Under the pieces are notes generated by a model. It had not been told where the DNA came from, searched no databases, and saw only the letters and a program-made list of their open reading frames with translations. A stretch of DNA of 64,000 nucleotides from Helianthus annuus. Its lineage: Eukaryota; Streptophyta; Magnoliopsida; Asterales; Asteraceae. The stretch lies in contig NC_035437.2 of NCBI RefSeq assembly GCF_002127325.2, forward strand, positions 156,213,880 through 156,277,879, written 5' to 3'. Below, piece by piece: positions 2,162 through 17,069 of the stretch (position 1 is the first letter of the stretch; the number at the start of each line of letters is the position of its first letter). A program made the position numbers and the translations under genes.

Positions 2162-2164
<3 letters not shown>

Positions 2165-2212
2165 ATAATGCTTAGTAAGAAACCCTATATTCTTAGAAAA
2201 CTTAGCAAACTA
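2162..2212 (+). repeat. Left terminal inverted repeat of the MULE
   Basis: Contains TAAGAAACCCTAT followed by AGAAAACT with a 3-6 nt spacer. It matches the reverse complement of 14393-14442 with gaps. The repeat is short (about 40-50 bp) and imperfect, unlike classic 100-bp Mu TIRs. Confidence 0.6.
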
Positions 2213-2465
2213 TAATAGTGGCCATCATTTAGCCACGTAGCCCTCCCACACTTCTTGTTACTTTTTGCTTCAAGGTTATATATGTAATTTCGGTTAGGCA
2301 AGATATTATCCCCTATTTGAATTGACATCAGCATTTAATGCACATCAACTCATTTGTACAATGCACCCACCCCCATATTTCTTTTACAATTTCTCATTTT
2401 ATATATTCTTCAACAGAAGTACATAGTCATCTTCTACTCCCCTGTTCATTTCTCCATTTATATCC

Positions 2466-5400
2466 ATGGAGACAAATCCACCAACCTCAGAATTAATGTC
2501 GCCGGTCCATAGTTTCCCCAACCGGTTCTTTTGCAGCGACTTCTAAAATGATGAGGAATTTAATGCTCCAGGTTTGTCCATATATGTAATTTAACTGTTC
2601 TCGAAGTTCTGTTTTTTTTTTGTCTTTTACAACTTTTTAATCTAATAATCCAAACTATACTGCATGGCCATGTTCACTTGTTCCATTCGAAGCTTCTGTA
2701 TACACTTATATGCATGTTGATTGTTCTCGGTCATCTGAATCCCCTGTTAGATCCCCGGATGTTGTGATATCCAACAATTTCATGAACAGCGCGTTTAATG
2801 ATGACCAGGTTATGGATAATGAAGAAGGTTTGTTTTTTCTATACACTGGTTTTGTTTTTTTTCTTCCCCAGATATGGCATTGTTCAAACATATTCCATAA
2901 TGTTCACATGTAGCATCCCAAGATTCCCATATGCAGGCCATGATTGTTGGTGTTTCTGGATCATCTCATGGTCCTTCTATGTTTGCTGAATCATCACGCG
3001 GCCAGTTAGACGGTTGTATATATTACATGGGAGCCCACTTTATTCTCATATCACAGATTTCTAACCTTTTGTCATGCCATGTATAGCAGATTCCTAACCT
3101 TTTTCGTTTTATGATGCAGGGCCATCGAATCCATACTTTGTTTTTGATACCCCTCAGGGAACCCGTTACTGGATTCCTAACGTCGCTGATAAGTGCATAC
3201 CAGTGTGTAGGAAATCTTACCCAACTTTTGCGGATGTTCTTTCCATGTATGAACTTTATGCGTTTGAAGCAGGTTTTTCTATAAAAAAAGGGCAAACTAA
3301 AGTCTGGAATGGAATTCCCACACACAAGTATCTTCGATGCTCAAAATATGGAAAACCACAACCAAAGAGGACTTTTGACACCCTAGATGAATCTTCTGTT
3401 AAGCACCGGAGGACCAACTTCACATGGTGTGACTGTAAGGCAATCATACTAGTCTCGATCTCGAATGGTTCATACACAGTTCTGAGTTTCAATGATATTC
3501 ATAATCATGAACTTGTTGAGAGTTACAACCGTGATCTTAGCAAGATATCACGGAAGCTGTCATTCTCCACGAAACAATTCATTCACAATATGAGTCTAAA
3601 CCGCATCGGACCAATGAGAGCTTATAGATGTCTTGTAGCTTTAAAAGGAGGGCATCACAATGTCAATGGGACTCCGGTGGATTTTAAAAACTTTAGCCAC
3701 CAGTTGCGAACTTTTATTGGCGAACGCGACGCACAAGTTTTCCTTGAACGCCTGCGTGAGCGTTTTGACAACCTACCCAACTTCTATTTTGATTACACTG
3801 TATCAAATGGAAAGTTGTCTTCTGTATTCTGGGCTGATGAGATTTCAAAGCTAAACTACAAAGCTTTTGGCGATGTCCTCGCGTTTGACGCAACTTACAG
3901 CACAAACAGGTTAGTCCCCCCCCCATTAACATGTGTTAGGCCTGATCCCCAAGTATACAACCTTAACCCCAAAAAGTTTTACATATTGTTAACATCAAAT
4001 CAATTTTTTATTCATAGGTACAAGATGGTTTTTGTGCCATTCACGGGTGTGGATCATCATTTCCAATGTGTTACATTTGGAGCGGGTTTGATATCAACCG
4101 AGTCCATTGAATCTTATGTGTGGTTGCTTAAGGCTTTCTTGAAGGCACACGGTACTCAACCAACTCTCGTGCTGAGTGATCAAGACCCATCCATGCTACA
4201 AGCTGTTCCTATGGTCTTTACCGAATCACGACACCGTCTATGCATGTGGCATATAATGAAAAAACTACCCTCCAAGGTTAGCTTAATTTGTTAGCCTTTA
4301 ACATGTGTTATTCAACATAACACAATTTTTATATGTCTTCTCAAACTGTTTTAATCTAACTCGTGTTAGTAACTATTAACTTTTTCAGATCTCTGCCGAC
4401 GTTCTCGATAACACTGATCTTCGGTCCTGCATTCACCGGTTGGTTTGGAATGTTTATATCAAACCTGAAACGTTTGAGTCCCGCTGGAATGACCTCCTAC
4501 AAACATTTGGGCTTCAAGACCACAGCTGGTTGAACGACATGTACAACATCAAACATCTCTGGGTACCAGCCTACTTCAGGGAACTGCCCATGTGTTGCTT
4601 AATGAAGACCACCTCCCGCTGCGAAAGCTCTAACACTGCCTTCAAGGTCAACTCAACAAGCGCAAACACCCTTGTACAATTTATGATGTGCTTTGAAAGT
4701 AGGGTAGACAGCCAACGATATCGTCAACGTGTATCGGAGTACAAAACCTCATCCACGATGTTCACTGGCAATACTGATTTAGCGATAGAACAGCACGCGT
4801 TCGCCATTTACACAAACGCTGTTTTCGCGCAAGTTCAAAAAGAGATAATTAAAGGGAAGTTTTTATGCTACATCACAAACCAAACCGAGTCCAGCAATTC
4901 CAGCCTTCTGATAGACGTCACTCATTTGGATAAAAGGAACAACATCACAAACGTCTATCAGGTAACACATGTTAGGCAATTTCATTATTACCCATCCTCT
5001 AACATATGTTAGATCTAAAGGGCTTTTCTTTTTTGCTGTCTATGTTCAAAACAGGTTACGTATAACACTGTAGACCAATCCGCCAGTTGCTCATGCAGGA
5101 ATTTCACACGTATCGGATATCTGTGTCGCCATGTCTTTTGCGTCTATCGATTGAAAAATGTTGAAAGGATTCCACCACAATACATAAACGATAGGTGGCG
5201 TCTAGATGCCCTCCCCAAACAGGTTTTTTCAATTTCCAGTCGATACAGAGTCAACCCACACGCACCGTCCGTTATGCGGAATGAAATCCTCGACCTCGTT
5301 ACTGAATGCGTTGATGTGGCCAGAACCGATGAGGATTCGTTGGCAAAATTGGTTGACCAACTCAGGGATTTCAAGATTAATGTGCTTTCCAAGCAACCAT

Positions 5401-5723
5401 TGTCTACAATTCAAAATGAATCAAACGAGTGTCAAATGGAAGAAATAGTTGGACAGCCAATCAACATTCCAGTCGAAGTTGCTAATCCAGAAGTTGCACG
5501 GAATAAAGGATGTGGTACTCATACTCGCATTTCTGGGCCCGGTGAGAAGGCAAAGGCAAAACCACCAAAACGTCCAAAGCAGCTTCGTTTATGCAAGCGT
5601 TGTGGTCTGTATGTCGACGACCACGACTCACGCAACTGCCTTAAGGTGGCTGCAATGAAAGCAGCAAAGGCAGCTGCTGAACAACAAAGGCAGACCGCCA
5701 CTGGCGACTCACCCTCTGATTAA
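2466..5723 (+). CDS. MULE transposase, FAR1-related, with SWIM zinc finger and C-terminal zinc knuckle
   Basis: Cuts and pastes the element. Supported exons are 3120-3909, 4018-4276, 4389-4961 and 5055-5723; their phases chain without a break and give about 763 residues to the TAA at 5721. Domains in order: a FAR1-type N-terminal DNA-binding region (around SYPTFADVLSMYELYAFEAG); the MULE catalytic core with FDATY (first Asp), VLSDQDPSM (second Asp), the RLCMWHIMKK Cys-His motif and SRCESSN (probable catalytic Glu); a SWIM finger CSC...YLCRH; and a CxxC-x6-H-x4-C knuckle near the C terminus. Small N-terminal exons are likely: an ATG at 2466, DDQ|gttatg near 2809, and 2936-3006. They are less certain, and the 2466 frame meets a TAA at 2544 although it stays open afterwards as NDEEFNAPG, so either exon 1 is broken or translation starts later. 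All three certain introns carry the TAACATGTGTTA-type palindrome. Confidence 0.85.
3910..4017 (+). other. Transposase intron splitting the catalytic FDATYSTNR|YK motif
   Basis: GTTAGT...CATAG. Removing it joins AFDATYSTNR to YKMVFVPF, the conserved MULE order. It contains a C9 run and the palindrome at 3927-3938. Confidence 0.85.
4277..4388 (+). other. Transposase intron
   Basis: Donor AAG|GTTAGC, acceptor TTTTTCAG|ATC. It joins KKLPSK to ISADVL in phase 0. Palindrome at 4299-4310. Confidence 0.85.
4962..5054 (+). other. Transposase intron starting with the palindrome
   Basis: The donor GTAACA is itself part of TAACACATGTTA (4963-4974). A second form, TAACATATGTTA, is at 5000-5011. The acceptor ACAG|GTT joins VYQ to VTYNTVDQ just before the SWIM finger. 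Confidence 0.85.
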
Positions 5724-6410
5724 AATCTTTATTGTCGTTTTCTAGTACTATGTAATGGGAGACTCTCTTCATTTTGGCCTTCTTACACACATGTAACAGT
5801 CTTTTGACATCATCCTGCTCTTCTCTGTTACGTGTGTAAGAAGGTGGAACTATTTTGATCCCATTAACCATCAATAGGATTGTAAGAAACTCTATGGCCT
5901 TGGCCACTTTTGTGTTTGTAGCCCTACTTCTTTGGGGACCTCTGTTTGCTATTAATGGGCTTATCTTAATATTATCTGCATTTGATAATTGTGTTTTTGT
6001 GTTTTATTTTTTACAATGGCATAAAAACAGATGCTTAACACATGTTAGCCCCCATAATGCTTGGGTCTTTTAACTTGAAAGGATCAAAACAATCTGTGTT
6101 AACCACACAAAAACAGCTTATATATTAAACCACGTCAGGTTATAGAATTAGACTTCACCTCTAGCCAACTTAAACACACATTCTACTAATAGGTTACAAC
6201 CCCGCGTCTAAAACACATTGATGGACTAACGAGAAATGACATCAACCGATTGCAAAAAAAAAAAAAAAAAAAAAAACATAATAAAATACCAACAAAACGA
6301 CATGGGTATGTCGTTTTGTTACAACATAGGGTCATCAGGTTAACACATCTTCAACCATTTTCAACATACTAACTACCCATTGTTATCCTCCATCTCTAAC
6401 AAGCTTTTCA
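5724..6410. other. Transposase 3' region and spacer inside the MULE
   Basis: No gene seen. Contains the palindrome at 6036-6047 and a poly(A) tract near 6256-6278. An ATG-initiated frame at 5855-6073 is hydrophobic and has no recognisable family. Confidence 0.5.
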
Positions 6411-6878
6411 TCATGGTGTGGGAAATTCCTCATCATGAAAGTACAGAGGAGAGGGGCTGCGCTCACTCTCCCATGGGTCATGGTAACACCAGGACTGGAT
6501 TGTTTCAGGTGAGTATGGACACAACGGGCAACCACATAATTCATGGTCCGGATCCGTCAGCAACCTAACCAACTCATCTGGTAGCCCCTTCAACTTTTCA
6601 GCTTCTGGAACAACGTGTTCCCTACGGCGTGACGTTTCTTGCGACACACCAGCTACATCAGTTACATTTTTGGTTCCGCTTTCTGAAGCATCGTCACCAG
6701 AAGCTACTCCAGTTTTCCCGTCTTCTCGATTCTTGTGAGACACTTTTCTTTCGTAGCACATCCCGTACCGGCCCTCACATGCTTCCTTCCCCTTTTGCAT
6801 CCGCTTCTCCATGCCTGGTTGGGTAGCCGTAACCTTACCTTTACACGGGTCCATCACATTACAACACTTTGGAACCAC
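6411..6878 (-). CDS. Hypothetical 155-residue ORF in the MULE
   Basis: Not recognised. It is an uninterrupted ATG-to-stop frame of 155 codons on the strand of the protease gene, lying between that gene's 3' end and the 3' end of the transposase gene. The N-terminal half is Lys/Arg/Glu-rich (probably disordered). The C-terminal half has a Cys-rich patch CGCPLCPYSPE that could bind metal. Coding status rests only on length and position; it could be a third element gene, an alternative exon or chance. No intron or palindrome lies within it. Confidence 0.35.
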   Translation of the reverse strand: MVPKCCNVMDPCKGKVTATQPGMEKRMQKGKEACEGRYGMCYERKVSHKNREDGKTGVASGDDASESGTKNVTDVAGVSQETSRRREHVVPEAEKLKGLPDELVRLLTDPDHELCGCPLCPYSPETIQSWCYHDPWESERSPSPLYFHDEEFPTP

Positions 6879-7508
6879 TAACAGTTTATGGTTAACTGAA
6901 GTGGTGAAGTATTACAGAATATGACTTTGGTTCTTCACTACAATACTTATAGAGGTTTTCCCTGGGTACATTTAATATAGGTCTTTGTAACTTGACTTTG
7001 ATGTGACCATAAGGTGCCAAAAAGCAATGGTTCCTTTTCCCAATAAAGTTGTTTTATAGACACCAACCCCTATGTTTGTAGACTTATGCCACCAACTTTC
7101 CCCAATTTCCAATATTCCTACTACATTTTTAGAAAGAGTGTTCCCCTTGGAAGCAGCATTTTCTCATTTTCCTATAATGTTACACGTACCTTTATATAAT
7201 TTCAAACAACCTCATTTAAAACATTATCAACTACGTCAATCAACTAGATTAATAATATTCTAACACATCCAACAACACATCAATATTCTTTAGAGTATAG
7301 AATTACCAAGTTACTAAACATCAGATTGTATATAGATAGTCTATCCCCAAAAAGACATCGTGACGATGCCATATCCAACAAAACACCTACCCCGCAATAA
7401 GTTTAAAGCAACATCCCCAAATCCATCAAAATACATTACATGTTTCCAAAAACAAAGCTGGCGCAATTAATGCACAATGGTGCTACAGTAACTTCCGTTT
7501 CACCCCCC
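6879..7508. other. Spacer inside the MULE
   Basis: AT-rich, with no supported gene. It holds the 3' flank of the protease gene, and no clear polyadenylation signal could be decided. Confidence 0.4.
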
Positions 7509-7517
7509 TAACACGTG

Positions 7518-7829
7518 TTACTCTATTCGGCAATCCTGCTTGATTTTTGGCAGCAGCACATCCACCTCCGAACATAAGATGTGCGCAGCATACCTCTTTC
7601 TCAACTTTCGCACCTCCGCCATCTTCCTCGCCCCACTCATGCTGAACCCACAGTTAAAACTTTTGTTTTTCCCCATGTAGCACTCCATGTGCCGCATCAA
7701 GAAGACCCCACAATCAGTTGTGTTTGCGGTGGTCGCCCAAGGAACCGGCATACGCTGGATGTTGCAGTACTCTATGTCATCGGCTCGCGGATTCCCAACC
7801 TCCCGAAGATATTGCACAAACATATCTTT
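7518..7829 (-). CDS. Last exon of the Ulp1-like gene with catalytic Cys
   Basis: Begins after TATGCAG with KDMFVQYLREVG and ends QDCRIE-stop. The TTDCGVFLMRHMECYMG stretch is the C48 nucleophile motif. The TAA stop is the first triplet (minus strand) of TAACACGTGTTA at 7509-7520. Confidence 0.75.
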   Translation of the reverse strand, partial: KDMFVQYLREVGNPRADDIEYCNIQRMPVPWATTANTTDCGVFLMRHMECYMGKNKSFNCGFSMSGARKMAEVRKLRKRYAAHILCSEVDVLLPKIKQDCRIE

Positions 7830-7923
7830 CTGCATACACATATACAAGCCATGCTCAATAAAAAAGCAGATCCTCAATATTATCACACTTATTTGTTCAA
7901 CAATTGTCAGTTTAGTAACTTAC

Positions 7924-8201
7924 GATCTTATACGCTGTGTCCTTGTGGAGGTAGTAGACCTATCTTTTATCAACTGACCTTGGCGGGCTTTGTCATTATC
8001 AACGACATAAATCCCGGGGTCGCGTAACTCAAACACTAGCAAGTAAAAGTGTTTGTGCTCTAATATCGGGAAGAAAACAATGTCTTGATTTCGAAAGTCA
8101 GGAACATTTTCACCGCTGTCAACCGCACCTTTTATTCCAAGCCGAAACTTGTGCATCCGCGCCTCGACTCCGCCTTCCTCAGATGTTAGCATCCACGGAA
8201 A
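7924..8201 (-). CDS. Ulp1-like exon with catalytic His and Asp, frame-shifted near its 3' end
   Basis: Reads FPWMLTSEEGG...DIVFFPILEHKHFYLLVFELRDPGIYVVDND. The exon length of 278 nt is not a multiple of three although both neighbours require phase 0. The frame joining correctly to the next exon (..HKDTAYKI) differs from the frame of the His/Asp segment. This suggests a small indel, or a missed intron. Confidence 0.6.
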
Positions 8202-9510
8202 CTTTAAGCACAACAGAGAAATTAATAAGGTCAAAAAGTCGCCACACTGTAATCTCTATATACATGACACTCACCACAACTTTAGTACCAAAGAATTGCC
8301 TACTGTAAGCCTCCCGTGATTTCCGTTTCTCTTGGAAGTTTAGCACCTCCGCCCAACAGTCGATAATACCATCTGAGACCTCATTGCCAACGTTTAAACT
8401 CTTGAACATAGCCCGAGACGCTTCTACATGGGTAGGGCTTCTAAACAGCAACTCCCTGGTGTTAGATGTACAAATTATAAATTAAATTGCATACTTTAAC
8501 ACATGTTATTTATTATTTTACTAAATTTTGGTACGGTGACCCCCCTACTTACACAGCCATGTGTATCGGACTATCTACATCAACCACCGACGACGAACCC
8601 TGTTCCCTCCTGCGGAAAAAATCAAAATATAACGAATTATCTAGTGTGGAACTTGGTTGATGGTTTACCCTATTATTATAAAACAATAAACCACGTTGCA
8701 GTTCTACTTACATGTTTGCCTCCATTGCCCGCTTCCTACGAGAATGCCCATTTAAAAGGTGCAATGGGCTTTCATCAGCGTATATGTACTCCCACAGATT
8801 TGCTTCCTTCTTAGTTATTGGCAGACCCATGTCAACAGACCTTATATAGTAAGGTGATCTGTTTGGTTCCGCTGCCACTTTCTCTCTGAAAGGGAGCTTC
8901 CTTTTTTGGGCCCCCAACTCAGCCAACATACGCACACGGTTTGCAAGCGGAATATTGTCCTCCACCTCATTCATATCACCCCCACAAAATTCCAGACCAG
9001 TTTGCCCTTTGTGGATTGCAATGGCCGGGTCATAGGAGCTAACTGGTTCTACCATTATAACCATACTCAAGTCTGTGGTAGCCTCCATATCGCCTAAAAG
9101 ATATAAAATAAATAACTCACGTAACGCAGTAAAGAATACAACACTTTTCACAGTAAATGAATGTATTTCAGCTCACCGGAACGCTCCAGCACTGTTTCTG
9201 TCCGAGCAATATCATCCATCTTCCCACTTGTGCAACCTGCACGTTTAATGCAAATAAGTATATTACATATGACTCCTACTAACCCATCAATACTAAGTTT
9301 GTTTAATGCTCTATCGTACCGATTTCATGTGACACGTCTAATTCACCCCCAATTTGTGTCATTCCAAGACTCCAATTGGGGCCATCTAAATTCCGTTCAT
9401 CAAAAACCGTATCGCCTTCGCAGACTGTGTATATGATTAACACATGTTAACTCACTAAATGATACAGGTAGGGAAGCAGTTAACACATGTTAGAGCATGA
9501 AAGTCTTTAC

Positions 9511-9911
9511 CGTTCTTTTCCGGCTGCCACACCTCTTCAGCCGCTTTCCCTTTACCCTCGACATCCTGGGCCTTATCGAAACCTGCGCCTGTGACAGAGT
9601 CTACCACTGCGCTACTGCACCCTTGCATATTTACATCAGTTGAATGCATCCCATCATGCTCAATCTTACCTTCTTCAGCTGCATAAAACATTCTTATCAC
9701 ATCTCATGCACAACTTAGTACCAGAAGCTGCATAAATAATTACCGTTAAAATCACGGTCACACTCATCAACAGCCCCCTTGCCTTTGCCATCCAGAACCA
9801 CATGTTTGTCCTTATCATTAACAGCACCTTCCACAGATGCAAACACGACGCCACTACTCTCTTCTTTTCTTCCATCAGATGCAGCCCTAACTTCATTCTC
9901 AATCTTACTAT
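9511..9911 (-). repeat. Tandem duplicated exons, 168 nt each
   Basis: Exons 9511-9678 and 9744-9911 are each 168 nt with phase-1 borders, separated by a 65-bp intron. Their proteins align: KIE near the start, a VV.SV.GA.-DK block, then EGKGKAAEE versus DGKGKGAVDE, both ending NG. The acceptors also match (GCATAAA around each). This is direct evidence of exon-plus-intron duplication. Confidence 0.75.
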
Positions 9912-10714
9912 CTGTAGTTGCATAAACATTTTTCGAATAAATTAGACATGGCTAAACATGGCTAAACAAATAAAACGGTTTCCGAAGATTACCTTCATTC
10001 TCATTCCCTTTAACCTGTTTGCTATCCTTAACCTCCATCTCGACCATTTTGGCCACCTCTTGATCACAAATAAACCGTGCTTCGTAAATCTCATCCTTTT
10101 TGGCGTCATTCGCTTCTAGCTCGGTGTTCTGGTGATCATTGTCATTCGCAGCCACTTTATTGTCTGTATCCACTCTATGTTCATCTTTACTAACAAACTG
10201 CATGTCCGAACCACGGTAATCTCTCAAAACAAGATGCCCCATGTTAAAACAAATAAAGTAATACAGCACACTTTTAAAGTCAGACATTTTGAAAGGGCAC
10301 GAGGAACTACCACGTGCACCATGCACTTCTGCTGCTTTAATACGCAGTATTGCACGCATTAAACCCAGCGGCTTATGCACTTCTTCAGCATCACTTTTAT
10401 CCACGCTTCCTGCTCCTTTATTTTCTTCGGCCCCACCAATACTACAGTCACCTCCACTTGAATTACCAGCATCATGAACACTCTTATCACCTTCGACGAC
10501 TTCATTTGTTTTTTGCCCAAATTCACTAAACCCCAGTTCTCTCTCTTCCAGTTGCTTCTCAGTCTTGTTGAACCCTATAACATCACAGAAATATTAAAGG
10601 GGTTTCAGACACGTACGCATATTAGAGGGTAATAAATTTTAACGAGCAACAAACTACGCGTGTACTTCTAAATCTAAATGTATGATGAAACTGGTAACAC
10701 ATGTTACAGTTTAC

Positions 10715-11293
10715 CTGATTCGTTGCCATCATCCGTTTTTTCCCGATCAATCTTTATATTTGTCTTCGGGCAATTCGGGGTCACAAAGCTTGCTTTCATT
10801 TCAGGAGCATCCTTTAACTTATTCAGACGGGGAGATCTCCTTACCCGCAACGACATACCACCTTCTTCCAGCGCTCCGGTACACTCAGTTCCATCAGCAA
10901 CTACGCTTGATTCCCCCGCACCATCTGCTGCAACCACAATAGAATGTTATACTATACGATAATTATCACATTAACATGTGTTAGACTAAACATTTCATTC
11001 CATAACATATAGTAAAGGTACATAAACTCTTTTCGCGCTATAAACGTACTCTTAAAATGGTAATACATGTAACAATTTACCTTTTTCTTTGCCACCATCC
11101 GTGTATTGTCCACCAAACTTCATATTCGTCTTTCTTCTTTTTGGGGTCACAAACCCTTCTTCTGTCTCACTAACATGCTTTAACTTCCCGAGTCTTGCAG
11201 ATCTCCTCACCTGACCCGACTTTCCACCATCTTCCATCTTTTCAGCATAGTCTTCTCCACCATCATCTACGATTGATTGGCCCGCAACATCAG
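10715..11293 (-). repeat. Tandem duplicated exons, 213 nt each
   Basis: Exons 10715-10927 and 11081-11293 are each 213 nt with phase-1 borders. Shared protein core: VRRSARLGKLKHVSE versus VRRSPRLNKLKDAPE, then FVTPKRRKTNMK versus FVTPNCPKTNIK, then DGGKEKG versus DDGNESG. Their downstream introns begin almost alike (GTAAACTG and GTAAATTG), followed by the palindrome or a decayed version of it. Confidence 0.8.
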
Positions 11294-14200
11294 CTGCAAC
11301 CCTAAAAAATATGTCAATCAATACAGGTTGCCACACCGTCAAATGTGTTACCGTGATCACTTTAAGAATGATAACCAACACAACAGGTATCACATTAACA
11401 CGTGGTTCAGTGTTCATTTCATAAACATTGTCAGCACACCTTCTTGGGCATCAAAGTCTATTGCTGAAGATCCTACTGCTTTCAATCTACTTTTACTGAT
11501 TTTTTTGTTTTGCCGGATAAGCGACTTCCTGTAAAAGCTCGCTATTGGTGACCCATCCGAAAAATCGTCGTCCATGCCATCCCCTACGAAATCGTTTGCA
11601 CAACGATAAATGGATTCCAAATTATTAAACTAAATAACACAAAGAATAACAGTTACTAACCAGCGTTTTCTCCTTCGTTGATGTGAAACCTTTCATCATT
11701 TCTCAAATCTCCCAAGACCGAATTGATCTTGTGTGACGCTAAATCTACCGCGTCATCGTGATCCTTACTTTCACTAACTTTCTTCTCAAACATACTTTCA
11801 AACGTTGCCTTCAACGTTTGTACTTCTTCGTCATCATGGCTCTCCACCAGTAGCGATTCTAACATACCCTCAATTTTGACTTTGTTCTTCTTTGTCACAT
11901 TTATTAACTGTCGTACTATCGTCAACCTCTCCTGTTGAAAATAGTTTTTCAACATTTTCATACTAAGAATATATACTAATTGTAAAAAACACATGTTAGA
12001 GCATATAACTTTACCTCTTTACTTGCCCAGTGTTCCACGTTATAGTTTCTGGGACATGTTAATCCTTTAAACCGTCCTAGTCCAAACCCACCAGCAAGTA
12101 TTTCAAGCCTTTCTCTCTCCTTCAATCTTTTCAAGTTCCAAAAAGCTAAAGGACACACCGCACTGTCTACCTCCATCCCCATGCACTCAATGCTATCAAC
12201 GTACAACAACTACAAGAAACAACGATCCGTTCAGCCCGGAAATAATCAACTATTCTAACACATGTTAATTATCTAAAATAATTAAAAGTACACTTACCAT
12301 CAGAATCGTTAGAGGACCGACGAAGAAACTTTGTGGGTCAAGCCGATTCCAGGTATCTTTGCAAGTTCTCAGCTTTTCTACAACAAGGTCACACCAGTCT
12401 ATTGTTGCAAAGTCCATTTCGTCATCCAGATACTGATTTCTTCCCGTAAACAACTTTGTTTATGACAATCAACCAGCACTGCCACAAAACACATTACAAA
12501 ATCCATCCTGAAATCAAAACTGTCTTCGCCATCGGACTCATCTATCATTTTCACCATCTTTGTTGGAGGCACCATTACACCCGGGTATCTCGCCCTCCAA
12601 TCCGCAATGGCATCAGTCAGCATCGGCAGCTTACCAATCGAACTAATCTTTTGTCCACCAGTCGGAATCCCTAATAACTTATGTATCACTTTCCTGTTCA
12701 CCTTGATATCACCGGCAGGCGTACATATCACCATCTTATCCGGATTAAAATTGTCCACAACAAAATAACCTAACTTAGCCGGCAAACCATCAACGCTGAA
12801 AGTTAGCAAACGACTAAAGCCCATTTGCCTGACTGCGTCACGTTGTTGTTCTGTCAATGCCCGTACACACTTATAAAACTGCAGTGGTGCAGATCTTATC
12901 CTTATGCCTGGAAATTCATCCTTTTTTGCTCGCTTACGGGCTTTCTGAACCTTTTCCGGTTTATTACCAACTACCTTTGGTTTCCCTGCTTTACCTTTCC
13001 CATTGTCCTCCGAACCCTTCTTCTTTTTGGTCCTTAACGTCCCACCCTTCGATGTAGCCGTCACTTCTGCCCTACTTACTGAAATAACATTTTATACGAA
13101 ACCACAACAACCCAAACAATTAGTCTACTTTACAACCACCGATGACAACATGTAACAATTTTTCATTCGTAACATCCAAATATTTGAAGGGCTTAAAAAA
13201 TAACTAACCACGGTTTTTCGCATTACATTGCCAGAATTATCATCGGCGCTGTTTCTTTCCCCTGCTGATTATCACATGTTAGTGAATTTTCAAGGTCATG
13301 CCCAATTAACACATGTTAATCAAAGCCAACAATATTTAACTAACCACGTTTTCTTTTATTTCCACACCCAGAACTATCCCCGACAATGCTTTTCTTCACT
13401 ACAGTTTCAAACATGTTACTCAGATTTAACTGGATACGCAATTAGCCACTATTGTAACAAAAGGAACTTACCACTGTGCTTTTTGTTATGTCCCCGTTTG
13501 CTTTCCACACAACCTTCATTTAGCACCGATAGATTCGTTACGAAAACGATTAGCCCAACAAGACATTATACAAATTATAAACAATATTACTGGTTAACCG
13601 TTACCTGTTTTCCGTCTTTTCCCATGGCTTGGTGACACACTATCGGTATCATCATACACTGCAAGGCAGCCAACAAAATTCTGTTATGCACAATTTCTTA
13701 TCCAACACACTATCCATATATAGATCACCTTGAACTATGTTAAGTGTTCAGAGACATAAAAATTCTAACCTAACTCCCGTTGGGTCGGACCAAAGTCAGA
13801 TTGTTGTTTGGAAGGTCCTCGCTTGGGTTCGTCGGATATAATCACAACGCTACGGCTCTCAGACCTTTTTTGCCCTAATCTGTGTTTCGAAGTCCTACAT
13901 ATATAAAAGAAAACAAACTCAGGTGCCATTTTCCGATAAATCGGTTGAACAAAACCACCTTTTACATGACCGATTACAACAAACTAACCTTTTAATTGAA
14001 GTCTGAATCTTCCTTAATCGTTTCAGCTTCACCGACGACGACAAGATTATGAACGACTTCCTCATTCTCCAAGTTGGACACTATCGGCTTCTGTGTTAGG
14101 GTTCCGGAAGTAGCTTTTCAATGTTTCTTTTTGGACGAGAGAGAAACATGAACAGAGGAGAAATGAGTATAATGGTAAAGAAGAAAAATTTTTGAATTGT

Positions 14201-14392
14201 GTTTGCAGTTCTTGATTAGACGGCTACTGCATGGCAGTGATTTCTGTTTTCCAATGTCTTTGTTGACTTCTGAAAATGCCCTTCAATGGTACTAAATGGC
14301 AGTACTTTTTATTTCTTTTTAATTTTATTCATACCAAAATAATCATAGCCATTGATCAAGTTTGATGTAAGCTAATCAATGGTTCACAATGG

Positions 14393-14442
14393 GTTTCCAT
14401 AGTTTTCTTAAAAAGATAGGGTTTCTTATATAACCAAGCCCT
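14393..14442 (-). repeat. Right terminal inverted repeat of the MULE
   Basis: Read on the minus strand it gives TAGGGCTTGG, then TAAGAAACCCTAT and AAGAAAACT, pairing with the left end. It runs directly into a (TA)n tract. Confidence 0.6.
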
Positions 14443-14456
14443 ATATATATATATAT

Positions 14457-14676
14457 GGTGGGGTTCTAGAGTAAACACTAGTGTATTTGTGAATTGAGTG
14501 AACAAATCCTGGCCATTGATTTATATCATCAAACGTAAAATACACTAGTGTATTTTTATCATCAAATCCTGATCAAATCCTAGCCATTGATTTACACTTG
14601 TGTATCAATAGTCATGGGCTAGGATTAGTTCACACAGTTCACTATCAAGGGGGTTGTCCACAAATGAACCTAACCT

Positions 14677-14678
<2 letters not shown>
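14457..14678. mobile_element. Small MITE-like element between (TA)n tracts
   Basis: About 220 bp. Left subterminal 'gtgaacaaatcctggccattgat' pairs imperfectly with the reverse complement of the right side 'gtgaactaatcctagcccatgac'. Tandem 'acactagtgtattt' copies lie inside. Bounded by TA runs on both sides, so no TSD is readable. Family unassigned. Confidence 0.5.

Positions 14679-14738
<60 letters not shown>
14678..14738. repeat. (TA)n microsatellite
   Basis: About 60 bp of TA between two TIR elements. Open frames through it are only Tyr-Ile repeats. Confidence 0.9.
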
Positions 14739-14741
<3 letters not shown>

Positions 14742-17069
14742 AGCCGCTAAAATAGGAACCACCTCCAGTTGTAAGAACCACGAGAACCACTCTCCACCAA
14801 TCAGATTTTACCAACTCAAGGGGTATGTTAGTCATTTACTTAAAACCTGTCAATTTTTCCTTTTTAGTCTGACTTGCATGACTTGAAGACATAAATTATC
14901 ATCCTCCCCAAAAAAGTTGAATCCCCCATTCTCTCTCTCCCAAGCTTCGTTCACCACCATCATCTCTCCCCTTGGCCACCCCCTCTTCTCTGTTTGTAGC
15001 GGCTTCCGGCACGGACATGCACACCCATAACCCGGGGCTCAGTGAATAGTGGTGGTGATTGGTTTATGCCGCACCTCCTCCCCCTGTACCTCTTCCTTCT
15101 CCGGCCACAAGTCCGGCGGAGCTAACAAAAACTCCGGTAAAGACTGTCTTTTTTGCTTCACCACCATCTGATCACTACTACCACCCGGCTACCCCCTCCT
15201 TCTACTTTCTCTCTCATCGTTTCACCGTTAAACTTTATGGGGGGTTGCTCAGATCTGAACGGGTGTGGCGGCAGTGGTTAGAAATGGGTTAGGGTTTGCT
15301 CAGATCTGAACCGGTGGCCCCAAACAAAGGCGGAAGGCGGTGGTGGGGGCGGTGGTTTGGTGGGAGTTGTGCAGAGGTGGAAGGCGGTGGTGGTTTGTGG
15401 GGAGACCGATGGAGGTTTTGTGCAGAGATCGGTGTATAGCTTTTAGTTCTTCATAGATCTGAACTCTCTGGAGCTTTTGTTACCACTTGTTGATTTACCT
15501 GCTTCAATGGTGATTTTGGTGATTTTTGGTAAAGTTGTGAATGCTATTTCTTTTGGGTTTGTTGCTACTGTTATTTTGTTGCTACTGGCATTTTGATCTC
15601 TATATTTTTCTTTGTGGTTTAGATTATATTGGTATTGATCTATTGGTATTTCTTTGAAATTTTTGTGGGTTTCTTTGAATTTTTGTGGGTTTCGATCTGT
15701 TGGTATTGATCTGTTGGTATTTTAGTCCCCAGATCTCGTTTTGCCGTTTATGGATTGGGCAGGCGATGATGCAAAAAAAAAAAAAAAAACTCGTAGATCT
15801 TGATGACGATGGCGCGGCAAGGACGGCGGAGGGTAGGTTTTTTGAACCTGCAACCCCATTTTTGCAGCCTTTTGATAATCGGATATTCTGAGCCAAACCC
15901 CGTTTTATTTTCGAGATACACTTTGTTTCGATGTTGTTTTTTTCCCCCCTAGTCGATGATGATAATTATATATCTGAGACACCTCCCCGAGTGTGCGATT
16001 TCTGGGTGTGTTCGTTTTTGAGTAAAAAAGTTTTTGTAAAAAAAAGGGTTAAACCGTAAACTTTTTAACGTAAAACGTAAAATAGTAAAACGTAAAAAGT
16101 TTTACGTAAAACGTAAAAAGTTTTAGGTAAAACGTAAAATGTAAAATTTTTTAAGTAACCGGCGCGTAAAACGTAAAAAACGTTAACGTAAAAACGTAAA
16201 AAACGTTAGACGTAAAAGGTAAACTTTTTAACGTAAAAACGTTAAACGTAAAATGTAAAAAGTTTTTCGTAAAACGTTAAAAGGTTTACGCAACACGTAA
16301 AAAGTTTTTTGGCGGTCGTAAAACGTAAAACGTAAAAACGCAAAAAGTTTACATAAAACGTAAAAACTGTTACGTAAAAAAAGTGTAAAAAACGGCGTTA
16401 AAAATGTAAATTACGTTAACGTAAAAACGGCGCGTTGAAAAAACGGCATTAATAAACGGCGCGTAAAAAACGGCGTTAAAAAATTGGCGCGTAAAATCGG
16501 CGTTAAAAAACGGGGCGTAAAAAACGGTGTTAAAAAATTGGCGCGTAAAAAACGGCGTTAAAAAATTGGCGCGTGAAAAACGGCGTTAAAAAGTTGGCGC
16601 GTAAAAACGGGGGCGTTGAAAAAACAGCGTTAAAAACGGCGCGTAAACAACGGCGTTAAAAAATTGGCGCGTAAAAAATAACGACGCTTGAAAAAACCCG
16701 GCGTAAAAACGGCGCGTCAAAAAAACGTAAAACTTAAAAAGTTTAACGTAAAACTTGAATTGTAAAAAGTATAAAAAAACTTTTAAAAAAAATCTGAATA
16801 TGTTTTTAATAAAAAAGTTATGTTTAAAAAATAAAAAGTAATATAAAATACAAAAAAACTAATAAAAAACAATAAAGATAAAAAGACAAAATAGAGTTAT
16901 TTTACCAAAATACCCTTTTGGATTATAATACTAAAGACATAATAAGACAAAAACCATTCAATATTATTTTTTGTTACTTTTAATCTCATCCATCCATCTT
17001 GTTGATCTAAAGGCTAGAAAGTGGTTCTCATGGTTCTTACAACTAGAGGTGGTTTTCATTTTAACGATC

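Follow-up and report, generated by a model that had tools for sequence, protein, structure and literature searches.

Why should a single 12-bp word recur through the non-coding DNA of one transposable element in sunflower? This question is raised by a 64,000-nt stretch of the Helianthus annuus genome (contig NC_035437.2, positions 156,213,880 to 156,277,879 of the forward strand), which was analysed as a whole and is referred to as the window. An earlier note on this DNA had described a 12-mer recurring in two genes of a Mutator-like element (MULE), one encoding a transposase and the other a Ulp1-type protease. We scanned the whole window for the corresponding motif class, the dyad TAACAYRTGTTA (TAA-CANNTG-TTA). 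The total set comprises 16 sites, 13 of them exact and three with one mismatch, and on the element ends as read from the sequence all of these are located in one MULE of ~12.3 kb (2163-14441).

Counts and shape of the 12-bp dyad

Within 3000-14200 there are 13 exact matches to TAACAYRTGTTA, whereas the remaining ~53 kb hold none. For the element, 0.008-0.018 exact matches are expected from Markov models of order 1-4. Matches with one mismatch occur three times inside 3000-14200 (4357, 11987, 13270) and once outside (1330). With two mismatches the numbers are close to background (7 in the ~11.2 kb of 3000-14200 versus 23 in ~53 kb). Allowing up to two mismatches to a single 12-mer, the whole window yields 51 matches on both strands, palindromic sites being counted twice as both strands were scored, compared to a shuffle mean of 12 and a maximum of 22. 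The earlier note had counted its 12-mer exactly 11 times in two orientations and this is confirmed (3927, 4299, 4963, 6036, 8497, 9438, 9481, 10695, 10972, 12256 and 13307). Its statements that well under one copy is expected by chance and that the word is missing from the rest of the window agree with the Markov expectation and with the absence of exact matches outside 3000-14200, where 1330 is the single one-mismatch match. The 12-mer had also been called a palindrome. This is not true of the 12-mer itself but of the class TAACAYRTGTTA.

The sites, together with one two-mismatch variant outside the set of 16, are:

3927..3938, + strand: exact motif, transposase intron 3910-4017
4299..4310, + strand: exact motif, transposase intron 4277-4388
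4357..4368, + strand: motif with one mismatch, transposase intron 4277-4388
4963..4974, - strand: exact motif, 1 nt inside transposase intron 4962-5054
5000..5011, unstranded: perfectly palindromic form TAACATATGTTA, transposase intron 4962-5054
6036..6047, - strand: exact motif, intergenic
7509..7520, unstranded: perfectly palindromic form TAACACGTGTTA, overlaps the stop codon of the protease gene by 3 bases
8497..8508, - strand: exact motif, intron about 8461-8552 (acceptor end approximate)
9438..9449, - strand: exact motif, intron 9425-9510
9481..9492, - strand: exact motif, intron 9425-9510
10695..10706, - strand: exact motif, intron 10575-10714, duplicate partner of 11061
10972..10983, + strand: exact motif, intron 10928-11080, antisense to the Ulp1 gene
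11061..11072, - strand: variant with two mismatches, duplicate of 10695, outside the 16-site set
11987..11998, - strand: motif with one mismatch, intron 11932-12014, backed by a collinear sunflower protein
12256..12267, - strand: exact motif, intron 12210-12297, backed by a collinear sunflower protein
13270..13281, - strand: motif with one mismatch, intron 13262-13344 (manual model) or 13079-13471 (script model)
13307..13318, - strand: exact motif, same intron as 13270, i.e. 13262-13344 (manual) or 13079-13471 (script)

When all 16 sites are aligned the same way round, identity is 94% across the 12 bp and drops to a pairwise 28% in the 15+15 bases that flank them. Random stretches of the element reach a mean of 26% and a maximum of 29% (200 draws). 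As conservation ends at the edges of the 12 bp, the array is best read as a set of discrete sites of the protein-binding type, and not as the product of repeat copying or of an insertion that creates introns. Single half-sites are barely denser in the element than in 17201-64000 (2.3 versus 1.9 per kb), which argues for the full dyad being the unit. All 13 exact sites have a CANNTG core, namely CACATG/CATGTG in 11 cases, CATATG in one and CACGTG in one. Compared to a model of independent half-sites, finding an asymmetric centre (CA/TG) in at least 11 of 13 sites, with two symmetric ones, has a probability of 0.011. This excess suggests that a protein reading the dyad may prefer CACATG/CATGTG.

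Neighbouring sites are 37-1473 bp apart. Four pairs each share one intron (4963/5000, 13270/13307, 9438/9481 and 4299/4357). Three of these pairs are spaced by 37, 37 and 43 bp, corresponding to about 3.5-4 helical turns, and the fourth by 58 bp, which may reflect either chance or cooperative binding.

Self-comparison of the sequence revealed a 261-bp tandem duplication of an exon and intron (10675-10935 versus 11041-11301, 71% identical). It carries the pair 10695/11061, of which 11061 is probably the decayed member. A 37-bp match (E 0.003) covers 9481/11987. Duplication hence accounts for two site pairs, not for the whole array. An origin of the array from tandem repeats was likewise rejected, since no tandem array holds the motif and self-comparison covers the two pairs only.

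The MULE, its two genes and the placement of the sites

The ends and genes of the element are:

2163..2210, + strand: left terminal inverted repeat (TIR), preceded by (TA)n, from blastn of the element ends
14393..14441, - strand: right TIR, followed by (TA)n, from blastn of the element ends
2466..5723, + strand: transposase gene with about 7 exons (model) and FAR1, MULE and SWIM domains
7518..14065, - strand: large multi-exon Ulp1 gene, convergent with the transposase gene (approximate gene model)

The TIRs of ~48 bp align imperfectly, with 52 of 65 columns identical (80%, blastn, TA flank counted). TIRs, (TA)n directly at both ends and a MULE transposase are the features of (TA)n-targeted MULEs (MuTAnT, SaTar), and all of them are present. 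The transposase is matched by the Pfam models MULE (9.8e-26), FAR1 (1.4e-10) and SWIM (4.8e-4). The Ulp1 gene consists of a conserved N-terminal region (13007-12006), a variable repeated middle and a C-terminal Ulp1 domain (Peptidase_C48) within 8481-7518. On joined exon pieces, with an X at the frame break, the latter scores 4.1e-7 and 30.5 bits at a cut-off of 20.7.

The N-terminal half of the Ulp1 gene is collinear with a Helianthus annuus protein (P0024, from a cluster of 24 member sequences), with identities over successive pieces of 94% (12851-12435; 139 aa), 89%, 87.5%, 87% and 73%. According to this comparison the reading frame shifts at 12435 in the window copy, and the introns holding 12256 and 11987 are supported. 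Another relative, P0004, gives one gapped match running through the first of these introns, i.e. the one with site 12256. A second frame change is apparent by eye near 7965. Consistently, no open solution for the last exons was obtained by script within the tried boundaries. Given the frame change(s) in the Ulp1 gene and a stop codon that interrupts the frame of what is taken, by eye, as the first transposase exon (2466-2572), the window copy looks damaged, yet 13 of its 16 sites are exact.

The gene models are approximate. Exon lists were set by hand, and the script model skipped exons in 4389-5723 and missed some in the Ulp1 gene. On these models, 15 of the 16 sites are wholly non-coding and the remaining one (7509) overlaps a stop codon. 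With ~7.5 of 12.3 kb coding (about 61%), the probability of 15 of 16 sites being wholly non-coding is about 7e-6 (calculated by hand); the computed value for 16 of 16 is 2.6e-7. Fourteen sites are intronic and fall into 10 of 27 modelled introns, the other two being 6036 (intergenic) and 7509 (stop codon). The earlier statement that most introns carry the motif is therefore not upheld, as 17 of the 27 hold no site. Six modelled introns lack GT...AG as typed, while 9 of the 10 site-bearing introns have it. Intron 13262-13344 depends on a manually set exon whose frame does not fit; its sites 13270 and 13307 are non-coding in either model, with uncertain distances to the donor.

A putative anti-silencing target array and its alternatives

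We assign a probability of roughly 55% to the reading that the array represents the targets of an element-encoded, sequence-specific anti-silencing protein with VANC- or KIU-like action. One DNA-binding protein would dock at the 16 sites, reading the 12-bp dyad, probably as a dimer. The likeliest reader would be the second protein of the element with its conserved N-terminal region, variable repeat-rich middle and Ulp1 C-terminus. Binding to a word that is frequent in the element itself and scarce outside would mark this element family. The bound protein would bring along its deSUMOylating Ulp1 part, which presumably removes SUMO from silencing factors, and silencing would be lowered across the whole element. 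Both genes could then be expressed and the transposase would be able to act. Two reasons would place the sites in introns and between the genes: these regions are free of coding constraint, and they are where RNA-directed methylation of such elements operates.

This reading is supported by the counts, the sharp 12-bp edges and the non-coding placement of the sites as described above, by their spread over the body of the element and by the presence of a MULE transposase and Ulp1 in one element. The parts are comparable to those of known systems: a transposase of the MULE type, an Ulp1-type second protein whose variable middle is repeated, and a word that within the window is confined to the non-coding DNA of its own element. 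For this reason we take the array as an anti-silencing target. The claim is that it works like VANC targets. Membership in VANC or VANDAL is not claimed.

The VANDALs of Arabidopsis are a documented case of transposons that counteract silencing in a sequence-specific way (PMC5735166). In VANDAL21, VANC21 binds the motif YAGTATTAY, namely within introns, between genes and in the terminal non-coding DNA, and VANC6 is linked with AGTTGTCC/AGTTGTAC in the non-coding portions of its targets. The density of the motifs is important, dense motifs being accompanied by a loss of methylation along the element. Tandem peptide repeats are present in variable regions of VANC proteins, and exon/intron tandem repeats in VANC genes; the Ulp1 gene of the sunflower element has its 261-bp exon-intron tandem duplication. 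RNA-directed DNA methylation is described to target the same non-coding regions (PMC10398659). According to a review, some VANDALs carry VANC genes with Ulp1 (KIU), which are said to act on non-coding motifs of their own kind, the role of Ulp1 being given as unknown (PMC13317346, citing Sasaki 2022).

The sunflower element resembles VANDAL21 and VANDAL6/8, as portrayed in PMC5735166, by a short word that is dense in MULE non-coding DNA and rare outside (here: within the window) and by a second, variable protein containing repeats. With KIU/Kaonashi (Hoen 2006 and Sasaki 2022, as cited in PMC13317346) it shares the combination of a MULE with an Ulp1-type second gene; non-coding motifs are the reported basis of family-specific hypomethylation in that system. 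Flanking (TA)n microsatellites are a likeness to the MULEs MuTAnT of Medicago (PMC4486113) and SaTar of guayule (PMC5907723). However, SaTars are depicted as small and non-autonomous (PMC5907723) and AutoMuTAnT as having a single transposase open reading frame (PMC4486113), whereas the element studied here has ~12.3 kb, an Ulp1 gene and a motif array.

The earlier note knew of no such motif in Kaonashi-type elements. The non-coding motifs of VANC and KIU in Arabidopsis do provide a reported precedent. Searching open-licence PubMed Central papers for both 12-mers as text returned no report of the motif, and neither did the literature on VANC, motif and Asteraceae in the same collection, where a sunflower paper names Arabidopsis VANC as an example. 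Motif arrays of the VANC type in MULEs are already known.

Several observations weigh against an anti-silencing function or against membership in the known systems. The sites are dispersed and no tandem array in the window contains the motif. The targets of VANC21 and VANC6, in contrast, are described as 8-9 nt long, non-palindromic and arranged in tandem arrays of the same orientation (PMC5735166). VANC21 is also stated there to bind terminal regions, while in our element no exact or one-mismatch site is found in 2163-3926 or 13319-14441 (one two-mismatch match at 13407). The TIRs and the 5' regions of both genes are thus seemingly uninvolved. Moreover, VANC has DUF1985 and DUF287, neither of which was detected at the sequence level by Pfam (E up to 1) in 10 pieces of the window, in P0024 or in any of 23 Deinandra relatives, the presence of both models in the library being assumed. 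KIU/Kaonashi elements are presented as non-TIR MULEs (PMC13317346). The sunflower element has imperfect TIRs of ~48 bp with (TA)n flanks, which may set it apart, and the N-terminal region of its Ulp1 protein is not recognised as DUF1985. Furthermore, the CANNTG core would suit a host factor of the basic helix-loop-helix (bHLH) type. Finally, the analysis covers one copy of the element, and the Ulp1 (protease) gene of this copy is frame-broken.

Plant bHLH proteins bind CANNTG-type cores such as CACATG/CATGTG, CATATG and CACGTG, and all 13 exact sites are E-boxes of this kind with fixed TAA/TTA flanks. The sites could accordingly be bound by a host bHLH transcription factor and serve the element as an intronic enhancer. 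We regard this as unlikely, though the best of the alternatives. No exact or one-mismatch site is located upstream of either gene start, which lie near the ends of the element, and beyond 3000-14200 the window (~53 kb, with host genes unannotated) holds no exact match to the full 12-bp form.

Somewhat less likely again is a function as internal sites of the transposase, read by its FAR1 or SWIM domain, e.g. for assembly of the transposition complex or autoregulation. The transposase carries a DNA-binding FAR1 domain together with a zinc finger of the SWIM type, and the sites are in the same element. MULE transposase, however, requires terminal binding, and no exact or one-mismatch site is found in the outermost stretches of the element, which span, with the TIRs, about 1.7 kb on the left and 1.1 kb on the right. 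This distance from the TIRs makes a VANC/KIU-like product the likelier reader. Of the three ideas offered in the earlier note the binding array consequently fits best, with the transposase receding as its reader.

A further proposal, an intronic splicing signal close to the 5' splice site, is very improbable. In its favour, introns hold 14 of the 16 sites, 9 of them within 40 nt of a donor, and one site starts 1 nt inside its intron. Moreover, of the 10 exact intronic sites with an asymmetric centre, 8 have the sense orientation. The proximity to the donor is not significant, however (p = 0.16 for the 40-nt count, p = 0.15 for the mean distance), so that a concentration near 5' splice sites, as had been proposed, does not stand. 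The sense bias exists as described but remains marginal, with a one-sided p of about 0.055 by hand and 2 of 10 sites antisense. A splicing signal is difficult to reconcile with both orientations, with two sites outside introns and with 17 of 27 introns devoid of any site, and an RNA signal has no need of a DNA dyad. Just as improbable is that the sites were left behind when introns arose (introner-like insertion) or simply multiplied along with duplicated introns: the 261-bp duplication with 10695/11061, the weaker 37-bp match with 9481/11987 and a flank identity slightly above the null mean speak for it, but the duplications reach two pairs only, the flanks over all 16 sites stay within the null range with hardly any sequence shared beyond the 12 bp, and two sites are extra-intronic.

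If the array does act as an anti-silencing target, a sunflower-type Ulp1 MULE would extend sequence-specific anti-silencing to asterids, with a 12-bp dyad as target and a candidate reader, and would allow the function of the conserved Ulp1 domain to be tested. It is conceivable, though rather doubtful, that a separate asterid branch of anti-silencing exists, in which a protein without recognisable DUF1985 reads a scattered dyad and brings a SUMO protease, local deSUMOylation then undoing silencing. In this case target arrays of this sort could do without tandem repetition, as the dispersed dyad would demonstrate. Apart from this, the element is a possible autonomous partner for the small (TA)n-targeted MULEs of guayule, which also belongs to the sunflower family.

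Ulp1 relatives, minor features and neighbouring elements

Relatives of the Ulp1 gene were collected with a profile built from 23 Deinandra proteins. Scoring the 7995 candidates with the most shared words returned 24 proteins, i.e. the same 23 and one of Helianthus annuus. Searched against solved structures, the family profile gave no match (E up to 0.1), and none of three family members scanned was matched in NCBIfam. The predicted structure of P0024 is poor, with a mean pLDDT (predicted local distance difference test) of 42.6 and a pTM (predicted template modelling score) of 0.24. The N-terminal region of the Ulp1 gene has no relatives in plasmids, and in a search for DNA of sister elements one transposase exon had none in viral contigs or in bacterial and archaeal genome contigs; these being non-plant collections, both results say little. 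The catalytic-cysteine motif DCGVF of the Ulp1 domain is present in the window (7518-7829). By eye it is replaced in the Deinandra proteins P0002 and P0008, where the protease may hence be inactive. With its duplicated exon, the tandem unit 10675-10935/11041-11301 contributes a further repeat of the RRSARL/RRSPRL type to the variable middle of the encoded protein.

One further open reading frame was noted between the two genes:

6414..6911, - strand: small open reading frame of up to 166 aa, from the list of open reading frames

Pfam gives no match to the 147 aa that begin at its first ATG. This frame could represent a third gene, as vanB does in VANDALs. Directly 3' of the transposase stop codon, at 5781-5845, an imperfect inverted repeat (CCTTCTTACACAC...GTGTGTAAGAAGG) was seen by eye that includes part of the motif.

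Three TIR-type elements with (TA)n borders follow one another head to tail: the MULE of 12.3 kb (2163-14441), an element of ~222 bp with ends matched by eye (14457-14678) and one of ~2.3 kb (14739-17064). The set at 2163-17064 resembles the modular SaTar arrays of guayule as outlined in PMC5907723, here with a member of coding size. The ~2.3-kb element contains a dense, nearly one-strand array of short words at 16040-16760. CGTAAAA occurs 31 times in this region, 30 times on the + strand, compared to 14 times in the rest of the window. GGCGCGT occurs 10 times and nowhere else in the window. This array of short words could be another array of the target type.

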